DNA of 37,555 nt, from NCBI GenBank assembly GCA_007116145.1, contig SKJB01000014.1, positions 1 through 37,555 of the forward strand, read 5' to 3'. Made by a program: the position numbers and the translations under genes. Position 1 is the first letter of the stretch; the number at the start of each line of letters is the position of its first letter. This DNA comes from Limnochordia bacterium. GTDB taxonomy: Bacteria; Bacillota; Limnochordia; Darwinibacteriales; DTU012. The notes under the pieces were generated by a model. That model was given only the letters and a program-made list of their open reading frames with translations. It was not told the DNA's origin and did no database searches. Below, piece by piece: positions 690 to 26,884 of the stretch.

Positions 690-2497
690 CTATGACGTGG
701 CTTGGAACAGTATCTCTTTGGATTAGCTTCCTATCGGCACTGTATGCAATACTTGGTGCTGCATATTGTCACAGAGCAAAAAACGATTGGTTACTACAAA
801 GCGCAAAAATGGCCTCCCTTGGTTCAGCTCTGCTGGTGCTATTGGCATCAGGAATTCTTTGGCACGCACTTTTGAGTGGGAACTTTTGGTTATCCTATGT
901 TGTTGATTATACACAAAGAGATCTTGCTTGGTACTATAAACTAACTGCCTTTTGGGCTGGACAAGCTGGAAGTCTGCTATTTTGGCTCCTCATTCTTTCG
1001 CTCATTAGTTTACGCGTCAGTTTTGGTTTACATCAGGTGCTCAATAGTATTCGTGCTTGTTTTCTCTTCCTGCTTATCTGGATTATCCCACCCTTTTCAC
1101 AGCTAAGTGTACCACTTCCAGACGGGTTTGGTTTACATTCAATGTTGCAAAATATCGGTATGATTATCCACCCTCCCCTCATTCTTCTTGGCTATGCCTT
1201 GTTTAGTGTCCCTTTTGCGCTCGCTATTGTAAGTATGACTCAGACTGTTAATATTGGGTGGGAACACTTAGCTAGACCATGGCTCTTAGGGGCATGGCTG
1301 GCTTTAACCGCTGGAATCATAACGGGTGGGCAGTGGGCGTATACCGAATTAGGCTGGGGCGGTTACTGGGCATGGGATCCAGTAGAAAACGCCTCGTTAC
1401 TCCCTTGGTTAACCGCAACGGCCCTTTTGCATACATGTGTTATTGAGCGGCACGGCAGTGGAATGAAAGGCTGGAATTATCTACTCGTTTGCACTACCTT
1501 CCTACTCACCGTTTTTAGCACTTTTATCACTCGGAGCGGCATTGTTGACTCGGTCCACGCTTTTGGCCAAAGTCCTATAGGGCCGTACTTGCTCGCAATG
1601 ATCTTGCTATTTATGGGATATTCCATCTATTTAGGCATCCATAGACAGAAGGTGTTCACCATCGATGGAACCAATGTCACGACGACTAGAGCAGCTTTCT
1701 TAAAGACGTCTGCCCTAGTGCTGTGTGCTATTAGTCTCGTTGTATTTTTTGGTACCATAATGCCTGTTTTGTTTCAAGTCGTCACTGGGCGGACAATTTC
1801 TATTCAAGAATCTTTTTATAACACCGCTACCATTCCATTGTGGTTCGTACTCCTCGCTAGCATGTCTCTATTCCCACTGGTATCGAAACTAAGTGGGCGA
1901 TCCACACTCGTTGCTATTGTCGGAGTGGTTATTGCACTCAGACTAGCAGGTGTCGAACACTACATTGCACTGCTAGCATTTAGCCTGGTAACCCTAGGTG
2001 TTTTTGGCATTATTATCGACTATCGCGTCGGCACTCGAAACCGGAATCGTTGTGGAGCACACCTCGTCCACCTAGGCATAATCCTAATTGCCCTCGGTAT
2101 TACTGGATCCGTATACAACCAAGAAGCATTGGTTTTTGTCCAACCCGGCGATTTTATCGAAATTGAGCAGTATCAGTTCGAGTTTACCGGACTTAATCCT
2201 TATCGGAGCGGGATGCATACTCATGTAGGGACTTCTCTCCATGTTTTACAGGGTAATTCGTCCCTCGGGCGCATATCAGCCGAAAAGATATTCCATCCAA
2301 ACTATCCTCAACCGACTTCAAGAATTGGAATTCTTAGCCGCTTACGAGCCGATATCCATTTAACCTTAACTGGTTGGGAACAGGACATCACCTACTTACA
2401 AATCAATGTCAAACCTCTCGTTGCCTGGATCTGGCTGGGATCCTACATACTGTATCTCGGAATCATTATCCTACTTTGGAAACCCTCGCTCTTATAG
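686..2497 (+). CDS. ccmF: Cytochrome c maturation heme lyase CcmF/NrfE family
   Basis: Polytopic 603 aa protein with the WWD-domain motif WGGYWAWDPVENASLLPWL. ATGA overlap with ccmE. Confidence 0.9.
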   Translation: MTMTWLGTVSLWISFLSALYAILGAAYCHRAKNDWLLQSAKMASLGSALLVLLASGILWHALLSGNFWLSYVVDYTQRDLAWYYKLTAFWAGQAGSLLFWLLILSLISLRVSFGLHQVLNSIRACFLFLLIWIIPPFSQLSVPLPDGFGLHSMLQNIGMIIHPPLILLGYALFSVPFALAIVSMTQTVNIGWEHLARPWLLGAWLALTAGIITGGQWAYTELGWGGYWAWDPVENASLLPWLTATALLHTCVIERHGSGMKGWNYLLVCTTFLLTVFSTFITRSGIVDSVHAFGQSPIGPYLLAMILLFMGYSIYLGIHRQKVFTIDGTNVTTTRAAFLKTSALVLCAISLVVFFGTIMPVLFQVVTGRTISIQESFYNTATIPLWFVLLASMSLFPLVSKLSGRSTLVAIVGVVIALRLAGVEHYIALLAFSLVTLGVFGIIIDYRVGTRNRNRCGAHLVHLGIILIALGITGSVYNQEALVFVQPGDFIEIEQYQFEFTGLNPYRSGMHTHVGTSLHVLQGNSSLGRISAEKIFHPNYPQPTSRIGILSRLRADIHLTLTGWEQDITYLQINVKPLVAWIWLGSYILYLGIIILLWKPSLL

Positions 2498-22941: not shown

Positions 22942-24993
22942 TTATCCTAATAACTGTAAAACTGTTTGAGGAGCCATATTTGCCTGTGCTAGCATCGCAG
23001 TGGCAGCTTGTTGTAAGATATTATTCTTGGTGAACTCCATCATTTCTTCTGCCATATCTAAGTCGCGAATTCGTGATTCAGCGGCTTGTAGATTCTCCGA
23101 CGAGGCTCCGAGATTTGCAATACTGTGCTCTAAGCGATTTTGGTACGCTCCAAGTTTACTGCGCTCGTTTGACACTTTTTCAATCGCACCATCAATTACT
23201 CGCAAGGCTGCAGTAGCTTTTTCATGACTAGTCACATCTAGAGCATACTCTGTTGACGTTGCCGACATGCCATCATTAACATTAACAACCTCAACATAAT
23301 AAGCCTTTAAACCATCGCCAATATCAACCGATTCGCCACTCTTAGAACTCGTCATACCTAGGGCAAGGGCACGGGTATCGCCGATCTCAACAATGATATC
23401 TTGCGCGCTATTCGCTCCGATTTGAAAACGAGCCTGAAAACCAGACGCTGTTTGATCACTTGTTGTCACAACAGGAGCTGTCGGAGATTCGTGTCCACCT
23501 TCCTGAATAAAATTAATTACAGTACCCGCTGAGCCCGAAACGTCATATTTAACGTTAAGACTAGTATTTAACTCAATGGCTGTTTTTAAATTTGCTACTT
23601 GTTCCGCAACGTCAGCTCCAACTAGTATTGCCGTACCATTCGCAAGACCCCCGTGATTATTATCATCGGTTATAACAATATCGACTCCGTCTATGGTGTA
23701 CCTACCACCTATGTCGACCTGGCTGGTGATGGTGAGATCATATACTCCAGATCTAGGTAAAGCGGCAACGGTTCCACGCACTGGAGCCACACCTTGTTCT
23801 TGACCTGCTAGCTCTGTCAACACAATGCGTGTTCCTAGCGAAGTAGCCTTATAGATGGATCCTAGATCAGTACTATCATTAATTATCGAAGCAATGCTGG
23901 TTGCCTGCTCTTCGATGGTTTTCCAGCCATTGATCTCATCACCGATTGCAAACGCACTACCACCAACCATACCGCCACCTAGATTAGCTACATCAGCAGC
24001 TGTTAGAGTATAAACAGATCCACCCACATTAATCACAAAATCATCTCCCGCATTAGCAAAAGCAGTGGTTAAATCAAATTGGTAGACTCCTTGAACGGCA
24101 GCGTCTTCACCACCAGCGAGAGGACCGATTTCTACATTGTTAAGGGATTTTAAATCTAAAGTTAGTCCACCACCTGCCTCCGAGAGACTGAACTTAGTTG
24201 GTAGCGAACCTTGTGAGTCAATAGCACTTTGGATATCTGCTAGCGTCACTGTCGCTGTATCAAGGTTAGCAGCATCGTGTACAATTGCAATTTCGATCTC
24301 ATTAGCATTTGTCGAAACACTAACAGTGTTGGTATCCATTCCGGGAGCACCTGCTGCAGTAACATTAAACTTAATTGTCTTCCCATCTAAATCCTGCCCA
24401 ACATCATTTGCAAGCGCAGTGATTACAATGTCTGTGATATCATCATTTGCAGTATAGGTATTCTGACCCGTAGATTTAGCGACAACACTATCAGTCACGG
24501 TCTTCATCGTCGAAACAGCACCCCGTAAGGACCCCGTTGTACTAGTACCTAAATCGCCATCAATGGTTCGTGCTCCACCACCGTTTAAAATCTTCTGCGT
24601 ATTAAACTCAGTCGCATTACCAATACGGTTCATCTCTGAAGATAGCTGGTTAATCTCTCGCTGAATTTGCTCACGATCGATGCCAACATTCGTATCATTC
24701 GCTGCTTGCACCGTTAGCTCTCGTACTCGTTGGAGCATAGAATGGGATTCGCCTAAAGCTCCTTCAGCGGTTTGTATCAGGGAAATTCCATCTTGAGCAT
24801 TGCGCATAGCTTGGCGTAGACCTCGTACTTGATTACGCATTTTTTCACTGATTGCAAGGCCTGCCGCATCATCTCCCGCTCGATTAATCCGTAATCCACT
24901 AGAAAGCTTTTCCATGGAGCGCGCTCCACCAGCGTTGTTTGCCGTTAATTGGCGATGTGCATTTAGAGCCATAATGTTATTATTGATTTTCAT
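22942..24993 (-). CDS. fliC/hag: Flagellin (about 683 aa, large variable central region)
   Basis: N-term [16 protein letters not shown]...[31 protein letters not shown] and C-term [50 protein letters not shown]. Start moved to ATG 24993, preceded by AAGGAGGA. Confidence 0.95.
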
Positions 24994-25002
24994 TTCAGCA
25001 CT

Positions 25003-25054
25003 TCCTCCTTGATTTCGAATTACCATTAGCAGAAGTCCATTTCTACTCAATGGT
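25003..25054 (-). promoter_or_regulatory. Hairpin with GGA in its loop plus GGA-containing SD (possible CsrA site)
   Basis: Minus strand: ACCATT-g-AGTAGAA-[ATGGAC]-TTCTGCT-AATGGT, then AAGGAGGA as SD 14 nt later. Confidence 0.5.
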
Positions 25055-25064
25055 TCCTGTATTC

Positions 25065-25130
25065 GCTGTGTCCGTCATTCAACAGCTTGAGCCTCTGTTT
25101 ACCAGTCCGGCTCACGGGTTAGATACACCT
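25065..25130 (-). ncRNA. Flagellin-leader RNA motif, copy A
   Basis: AGGTGTATCTAACCCGTGAGCCGGACTGGTAAACAGAGGCTCAAGCTGTTGAATGACGGACACAGC. Two hairpins: GAGCC-gga-CTG/CAG-a-GGCTC and GCTGT/ACAGC. Confidence 0.6.
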
Positions 25131-25189
25131 AGATCGTCCAACCCCCCCTTCCAATCAAGTGTCAAAACTACCTCTCCATGAAATACTTA

Positions 25190-25223
25190 CAAAAAAGACG
25201 ACTCCCAATCATGTGGGGGTCGC
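25190..25223 (-). terminator. Intrinsic terminator inside the flagellin leader
   Basis: Minus strand: GCGACCCCCACATGATTGGGAGTCGTCTTTTTTG; stem CGACxCCCA/TGGGxGTCG followed by a T tract. Confidence 0.7.
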
Positions 25224-25286
25224 TTACAAACAGTGCGGCTTGTTTCCCCAACAGTTAGGTATATTAGCAACACCTACTCTCTCTCC

Positions 25287-25320
25287 GTTAGGATCAATAA
25301 ATAACCTTCTTCCGATCCTA
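25287..25320 (-). other. Stem-loop in the flagellin leader
   Basis: Minus strand: TTAGGATC ...18 nt... GATCCTAA, 8-bp perfect arms. Confidence 0.6.
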
Positions 25321-25382
25321 AAATAGAACGTGTCGATGTTGTCTAATGTTCTGTTTATCTGCACAGTGGCAGAATATTTTGG

Positions 25383-25459
25383 GGTACTGTATCAATCATT
25401 CAACAGTATTAAGCCTCTGTAAACCAGTCCAGCCCGTATCCCCACGGATTTTAGTACCT
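25383..25459 (-). ncRNA. Flagellin-leader RNA motif, copy B
   Basis: AGGTACTAAAATCCGTGGGGATACGGGCTGGACTGGTTTACAGAGGCTTAATACTGTTGAATGATTGATACAGTACC. Same hairpins as copy A with G-U and A-U/G-C changes. Confidence 0.6.
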
Positions 25460-25482
25460 ATACGTGTTTCTTCTCTTTTATT

Positions 25483-25509
25483 ATATCGGTACATTCATGG
25501 AGATCTTAA
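25483..25509 (-). promoter_or_regulatory. Sigma28/SigD-type flagellar promoter
   Basis: Minus strand: TTAA - GATCTCCATGAATGT (15 nt) - ACCGATAT, close to the TAAA-N15-GCCGATAT consensus. Confidence 0.75.
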
Positions 25510-25645: not shown

Positions 25646-26884
25646 CTAATTCTTAATTAAAATAGACATGTGGGCCATCGTATCAAAGCTATTCTGCGCT
25701 AAAAGACTATATACTTTCCGCAAATAGGCACTATTATGCTCAACGGTTTTAGCAAATGATTGAATCAGTTTTAGTACCTGCTCATCGGTTAATCCCTTGT
25801 GGTAACGAGCCATCCCGATTAGATGCAACTTAATCATTGAGAAGTGAATCACAAGCATCATATACTCACCAAACACTCCCCGTTCTCCTAAGGGAAACAT
25901 ATTTCTAAACACGTAATTAACAAGATAGTTTTCCAGAATATGTGCATTCTCATCTATATAAGGCTGATAATACTTTTGATACGCATCATTATAACATTCC
26001 ATTACCGCAGTGTACGTAGCCCCTTGCTTATACTCAATACCCTGCAATGTCTGATTGAGGCATTGGAGATACCGCTGGTTATTAACGCCTTGGGTTAAAC
26101 GTTCATCGACTAGCTCTTTTAAGACTCGCATTTGAATAGTGGTTTGATCAGGGATTTCACTCATTAACTGCTTTAGGGATCCATCGGTCAAAAACGTCAT
26201 GTAATTTTGAGTGACTGATTCTAGTTGTTCAAACTGTTTACTTTCAACTATTTCTTGCACCTTACCCATAAATAGCCCTAATACGATAAGACGTTGCCAG
26301 AGGGGATACGTTCGCTCTTGAAGAATCTGTATGGTAAAAATCCGGAGTTCCCAAAAATACCGTTCAGCTTTTTTGGAAACTTTAATGCTATCTGTTTCAA
26401 TCACTTTTGCAATTACCTTGCGATTATCTATCTGTTCAAGCACTTGATCAAATTCCATCACTTCCTTTGGTAATAAAGCCAAGCGAGCCGCTTCAGGACA
26501 GGACATTGTGGCTGAACGTTCCATTACTCTGTTTACCTGGTTTGTGGTACGTGGATAGGTGGCGCACGTTAGTGATAAATAGTTCTCACCCAAATTTTTA
26601 TGAATAGTACATAGCATATCTGCAGTTAGAAACGGACACCGACTATCTGCTAGCATTTTAATCTTAGCAAAATTCGTTGCACTAGGGTTGGAACGATTCC
26701 GAGTCACTTGTTTACTCAATATCGGTTGCAAATCAGAGTGCGTAACCTTCCTATATTTCTTATACGTCTCTTCATCCACATTGACTCGCCACCCTACGCA
26801 GCAGCTATCTTCACACGCAGAGCCGATACATTGAAAGTGATGCATATATTGTGGAATTAGTAATGCCTTTTCCTTTTCAGCCAT
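25646..26884 (-). CDS. fliB: FliB family flagellin lysine-N-methylase
   Basis: LIPQYMHHFQCIGSACEDSCCVGWRVNVD, CPFLTADMLCTIHKNLGENYLSLTCATYPR, ATMSCPEAARLAL: the FliB cysteine pattern. Confidence 0.9.
   Translation of the reverse strand: MAEKEKALLIPQYMHHFQCIGSACEDSCCVGWRVNVDEETYKKYRKVTHSDLQPILSKQVTRNRSNPSATNFAKIKMLADSRCPFLTADMLCTIHKNLGENYLSLTCATYPRTTNQVNRVMERSATMSCPEAARLALLPKEVMEFDQVLEQIDNRKVIAKVIETDSIKVSKKAERYFWELRIFTIQILQERTYPLWQRLIVLGLFMGKVQEIVESKQFEQLESVTQNYMTFLTDGSLKQLMSEIPDQTTIQMRVLKELVDERLTQGVNNQRYLQCLNQTLQGIEYKQGATYTAVMECYNDAYQKYYQPYIDENAHILENYLVNYVFRNMFPLGERGVFGEYMMLVIHFSMIKLHLIGMARYHKGLTDEQVLKLIQSFAKTVEHNSAYLRKVYSLLAQNSFDTMAHMSILIKN

Follow-up and report, generated by a model that had tools for sequence, protein, structure and literature searches.

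Two copies of a conserved RNA element precede the flagellin gene of a Limnochordia bacterium, and this element is, judging from its covarying structure on the sense strand and its conserved gene linkage, a structured cis-regulatory RNA, which is widespread before hook and rod genes in several phyla and probably controls the amount of protein made from them. We consider it fairly likely that the whole is explained by a family of cis-acting RNAs that are bound by a trans-acting factor, act on the translation of the flagellar axial gene set and were recruited to flagellin in this genome. In this view, a trans-acting factor specific to the flagellum, a protein being likelier than a metabolite, would bind the core and thereby set translation initiation at the axial gene, which is mainly flgE (hook) or flgG (distal rod). 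The window, i.e., the whole stretch of 37,555 nucleotides that was analysed, contains the following features around the flagellin leader:

25483-25508, minus strand: sigma-28 (sigma-D)-like promoter, TAAG (25508-25505), 15 nt, CCGATAT (25489-25483)
25380-25444, minus strand: copy B as a whole, closed by P1 at 25444-25440/25384-25380 (UGGGG/CCCCA), from alignment with relatives
25435-25385, minus strand: core of copy B, covariance model match (54.7 bits)
25434-25431/25415-25412, minus strand: P2 of copy B, with GGA/A internal loop and inner CUG/CAG
25408-25403/25390-25385, minus strand: P3 of copy B, with the 12-nt loop UGAAUGAUUGAU
25288-25321, minus strand: 8-bp stem-loop TTAGGATC/GATCCTAA between the copies, from sequence and fold
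25246-25251, minus strand: TTGGGG run, with complementarity to both CCCCAA (the 3' arm of P1 in copy B) and the 5' arm of the terminator
25191-25223, minus strand: intrinsic terminator, stem GCGACcCCCA/TGGGaGTCGT, then TCTTTTTT
25058-25127, minus strand: copy A as a whole, P2 GAGCC/GGCUC, P3 GCUGU/ACAGC, loop UGAAUGACGGAC
25113-25064, minus strand: core of copy A, covariance model match (50.1 bits)
25127-25123/25062-25058, minus strand: possible P1 of copy A, UGUAU/AUACA
25004-25010, minus strand: Shine-Dalgarno sequence AAGGAGG of the flagellin gene, from sequence
22942-24993, minus strand: flagellin gene (open reading frame), 683 aa from the ATG at 24993-24991

A sequence-only reading of this DNA had proposed a duplicated two-hairpin motif in the flagellin leader, and both copies were indeed found on the minus strand, about where it had placed them. 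A covariance model that was trained with both copies included scored them at 54.7 and 50.1 bits, with the next best place in the window at 10 bits. Sequence comparison shows that GGACTGGTNNACAGAGGCT and CTGTTGAATGA are common to copies A and B, and the changes described between the copies, to G-U pairs in hairpin 1 and from G-C to A-U in hairpin 2, were confirmed. Since the G-U pairs are kept on the sense strand and the other changes are compensatory, the RNA is sense to the flagellin gene, as had been argued, and a DNA-level element is unlikely. The closing pairs of the same reading (GTGT/ACAC; GGTACT/AGTACC) did not hold up, as they are not conserved and relatives support another pairing, the homologous closing stem being TGGGG/CCCCA in copy B and a weaker TGTAT/ATACA in copy A. 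No comparative support was found for the 8-bp stem-loop at 25288-25321, which is drawn from sequence and fold. The promoter was called by reading the sequence against the known sigma-D consensus; transcription is expected to start near 25476, upstream of copies A and B, and because the sigma-28-like promoter lies just upstream of copy B, both copies should be within the leader. The encoded protein matches the NCBIfam flagellin Hag with an E-value of 5.9e-99, at a score under the curated cut-off.

The core comprises about 50 nt and two hairpins, P2 and P3, to which a third stem, P1, is added in many lineages, closing the element. P2, with the consensus GGCN-GGA-CYN ... NRG-A-RGCC, is built from GGCNGGAC ... 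GARGCC with a GGA/A internal loop, while P3 is a stem of 5-6 bp with a 12-nt loop N-GA-N-YGAY-N-GA-N that could form tandem sheared G-A pairs. By column counts, the GGAC internal loop, the GCC and the loop GAs (NGA-NYGAY-NGAN) are near invariant. An alignment of 101 sequences shows double compensatory changes in 11 of the 13 base pairs, including all six of P3, and 97.7% of its cells pair; shuffled alignments reach 77.8%, and slid ones about 51% at most. Among the class matches of a first covariance model, too, covariation was far above shuffles.

The GGA that is invariant in P2 and the presence of csrA genes in 71 of 80 motif-bearing genomes would suit a site for CsrA, which together with FliW controls flagellin in Bacillus, and the likeness to CsrA/FliW flagellin leaders extends to post-transcriptional control of an axial gene near the Shine-Dalgarno site. 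Unlike those leaders, however, the present motif has no conserved GGA hairpin loops: its invariant GGA is an internal loop between paired bases, and the GA doublets of the loop are NGA with a freely variable N (column counts). Moreover, CsrA is missing from two near-complete genomes with a strong motif (G073, G446), which together with the count of 71 in 80 rejects it as an obligatory partner and makes a CsrA site as such very improbable. FlbD/SwrD, encoded beside flgE, was likewise rejected as an obligatory partner, being present in only 57 of the 80 carriers, and FlgV was rejected as the binder as it is reported not to bind RNA (PMC11607428).

With a first covariance model (A3, R1) used to search the class of the window's genome, 46 of 73 genomes matched, before flgG or flgE. 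A core model built from 51 class sequences (R2) matched 239 of the 399 genomes sampled from the phylum, and 82 of its matches, from many families, lie before flgG or flgE with few exceptions. The most diverse model (R3, 101 sequences) raised this to 265 of 399, and when its matches were compared by eye with the carriers of FlgE/F/G genes, these were 265 of the 334 genomes with such genes and none of the 65 without. About a fifth of the FlgE/F/G-bearing genomes are therefore unmatched, some owing to divergent copies; those missed by R2 directly before flgE are in G138, G245, G373, G415, G123 and G077. Two matches, a false positive (L089) and one with an unclear gene (L061), were excluded, as were from later models two class members with misaligned P3 (L073, L085). 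In these two, P2 and P3 are separated by an additional hairpin, whose loop in L073 repeats GA-YGAY-GA, and the flgE leaders of G077 and G123 (L303, L305) keep P2 with a different P3 loop that has no NGA repeats, possibly as degenerate or variant elements.

Beyond this phylum, R3 matched genomes in Bdellovibrionota (43 of 192 from that phylum) and in the phylum of Geobacter (12 of 297), and in most of the readable contexts flgE is directly downstream. A scan of named genomes, with a search pattern that did not include P3 pairing, gave among the matches listed Bacillus, Halobacillus, Brevibacillus, Paenibacillus, Clostridium, Lactobacillus sp., Syntrophomonas and Halanaerobium and, outside Bacillota and again among those listed, Bdellovibrionales, Oligoflexia, Bacteriovoracaceae, a Geobacter MAG, Hydrogenedentota, Latescibacteria and Poribacteria. 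The copies in Bdellovibrionota, Geobacter-type genomes, Hydrogenedentota, Latescibacteria and Poribacteria are nearly all directly before flgE or flgG. The motif was not found in the flg operon of E. coli.

The products encoded downstream are FlgE, FlgG or flagellin family proteins (NCBIfam). The linkage to flagellin that had been anticipated is real for the window's copies, but the family as a whole belongs mainly to flgE and flgG, flagellin being a local exception. For flgE (116 loci), the median distance is 2 nt from the upstream stop codon to P2 and 33 nt from the end of P3 to the start codon; for flgG (75 loci), the two medians are 19 nt and 50 nt. This usual site inside an operon and beside the ribosome site argues for control at the level of translation, which we consider the most likely mode for the axial gene. 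The strict place right after the upstream stop codon, and the fact that only secreted axial proteins are served, would also be compatible with an element for RNA processing, stability or mRNA targeting near the export machinery that leaves ribosome access unregulated; the sequence-specific internal and terminal loops, however, suggest binding over plain cleavage, and we regard this alternative as unlikely. Some copies are 100-300 nt from their gene, and such long flgG/flgE leaders (L104, L105, L118, L098, L100, L103, L111, L138), which contain further structure, may harbour terminators or other switches.

Scanning the window and 15 related loci against Rfam 15 at gathering cut-offs returned no matches, and at E<=10 only irrelevant chance matches were found around the motif, among them a sub-threshold Guanidine-III match in one locus (9.9 bits against a cut-off of 36) upstream of the core. 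Known flagellar motifs were included in these scans and no known class was matched, so that the candidate cis-regulatory RNA of the sequence-only reading is borne out by the Rfam scans, the strong covariation and the gene linkage. Its statement that the motif does not match c-di-GMP-I, c-di-GMP-II, glycine or guanidine riboswitches agrees with the covariance model scans. The c-di-GMP-I/II (GEMM) riboswitches are also linked to flagellar genes, and c-di-GMP-I is a hairpin junction, but the present element has other conserved bases and does not precede enzymes or effectors. Ribosomal-protein leaders are intercistronic leader RNAs bound by regulatory proteins, and the element resembles them in being small, structured, tied to one gene family and placed within an operon, after a stop codon and ahead of the next Shine-Dalgarno sequence; it differs in serving flagellar axial genes and in matching no Rfam family. 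Termite-flg (RF01729) and flg-Rhizobiales (RF01736) are, similarly, named RNA motifs tied to flagellar genes, given for the termite hind gut and Rhizobiales only (PMC2864571), but neither covariance model matched even at E<=10. Searches of the open-access PMC literature found no report of an RNA motif upstream of flgE or flgG.

Within the class of the window's genome, P1 occurs in covarying types (CGGGG/CCCCG, AAGGGG/CCCCTT, GGTTGGG/CCCAACC, CCCCGG/CCGGGG), and its pairing exceeds swapped-partner controls with a z of 7.0 in this class and 5.7 in the phylum sample. The flgG leaders of this class offer the P1 3' arm an alternative partner in the Shine-Dalgarno region, although a C-rich arm would to some extent pair trivially with any purine-rich Shine-Dalgarno sequence. 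The predicted mean accessibility of the Shine-Dalgarno sequence is 0.50 with P1 and 0.23 without, with P1 giving the higher value at 37 of the 41 class loci, these being predictions to which C-rich P1 arms contribute and in which related species are not independent. In this class, formation of P1 would leave the Shine-Dalgarno sequence free (the presumed ON state) and its loss would allow the 3' arm to pair with that sequence. P1 support was not found in the Bacillus-type set (z 0.9 against swapped-partner controls), and therefore P1/Shine-Dalgarno switching cannot be the mechanism of the whole family.

This competition in the window's class, the compact and highly conserved loops and the terminator adjoining copy B would also suit a small-molecule riboswitch, in which the hairpins would dock as an aptamer, e.g., for a nucleotide second messenger, and P1 is the switch. 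But the examined loci carry almost only axial structural genes rather than enzymes or transporters, P1 is unsupported in the Bacillus-type set and no Rfam riboswitch matched, and a riboswitch thus appears rather unlikely to us. Because the linked genes are structural only, we favour a protein as the binder of the core. It is tempting to speculate that this is an RNA sensor of ancient origin, common to Bacillota, Bdellovibrionota and further phyla, which senses the status of flagellar assembly or export and adjusts the production of hook and distal rod, with its tandem re-use at flagellin acting on both transcription and translation; the signal would come via a protein of the export or rod-hook machinery or via a signalling ligand. 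We put this broader reading forward tentatively, as a possibility to which we give somewhat less than even weight.

As to how flagellin acquired its copies, the 2.76-Mb genome has only three occurrences of GGACTGGTNNACAGAGGCT with up to two mismatches, well outside what chance would give, and the third lies between flgF and flgG; a fourth copy of the element is found before flgE (C123). Six further family genomes contain the exact pattern, in each case before flgG. In the phylum sample, the five other members of the family have only one or two matches each. Copies A and B are closer to the flgG copy of the same genome than to its flgE copy, and because of this resemblance and the one or two matches in family relatives, the flagellin-leader copies were likely recruited from a flgG-type copy. 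Two flgG-type copies would thereby have come to serve a sigma-28 flagellin leader, B before the terminator and A near the start codon.

The terminator that had been noticed between the copies is real (25223-25191), the fold of the 3' part containing it having -10.8 kcal/mol. The TTGGGG run that had been suggested as an anti-terminator is present one base away from its reported place (actually 25251-25246). Folding of 25478-25183 gave -80.0 kcal/mol for P1 with the terminator, -81.1 kcal/mol for CCCCAA/UUGGGG with the terminator and -73.1 kcal/mol for the anti-terminator, i.e., P1 and its alternative are near-equal in energy and the terminator is favoured with either. The anti-terminator pairing, at about 7-8 kcal/mol above the terminator fold, would require co-transcriptional help or a bound factor. 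As the main mechanism it is weak on these energies, and since most family members are intra-operon, near the Shine-Dalgarno site, translational control is the more general mode. The order of sigma-28-like promoter, copy B and strong terminator, the latter preferred with or without P1, could alternatively yield a short RNA that acts as a decoy, titrating the factor from copy A, flgG and flgE, but this layout was seen in one genome only and we find the idea doubtful, indeed quite improbable.

The flagellar hierarchy is mostly attributed to promoters, sigma-28/FlgM and CsrA/FliW. That about four fifths of the sampled FlgE/F/G-bearing Bacillota, as well as members of other phyla, carry an RNA that has no Rfam entry points to a missing layer of control over the amount and order of hook and rod subunit synthesis, and the conserved loops offer a clear target in the search for the binder.

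A few loci deviate from the general picture. At L147 (G106:C5:28293-31343), the motif (1501-1551, minus strand) follows flgF, but in the expected place of flgG the next gene resembles a LytR-CpsA-Psr type protein; gene replacement or rearrangement appears to have orphaned this copy. An FlgE-like protein of an Oscillospiraceae genome (L208:5904-7265) has an aberrant N-terminus with the motif still upstream. The window's flagellin is itself long, at 683 aa, and has an extensive variable region at its centre, and upstream of its leader lies a gene (25646-26884, minus strand) that we take to encode a flagellin lysine-N-methylase (FliB-like).
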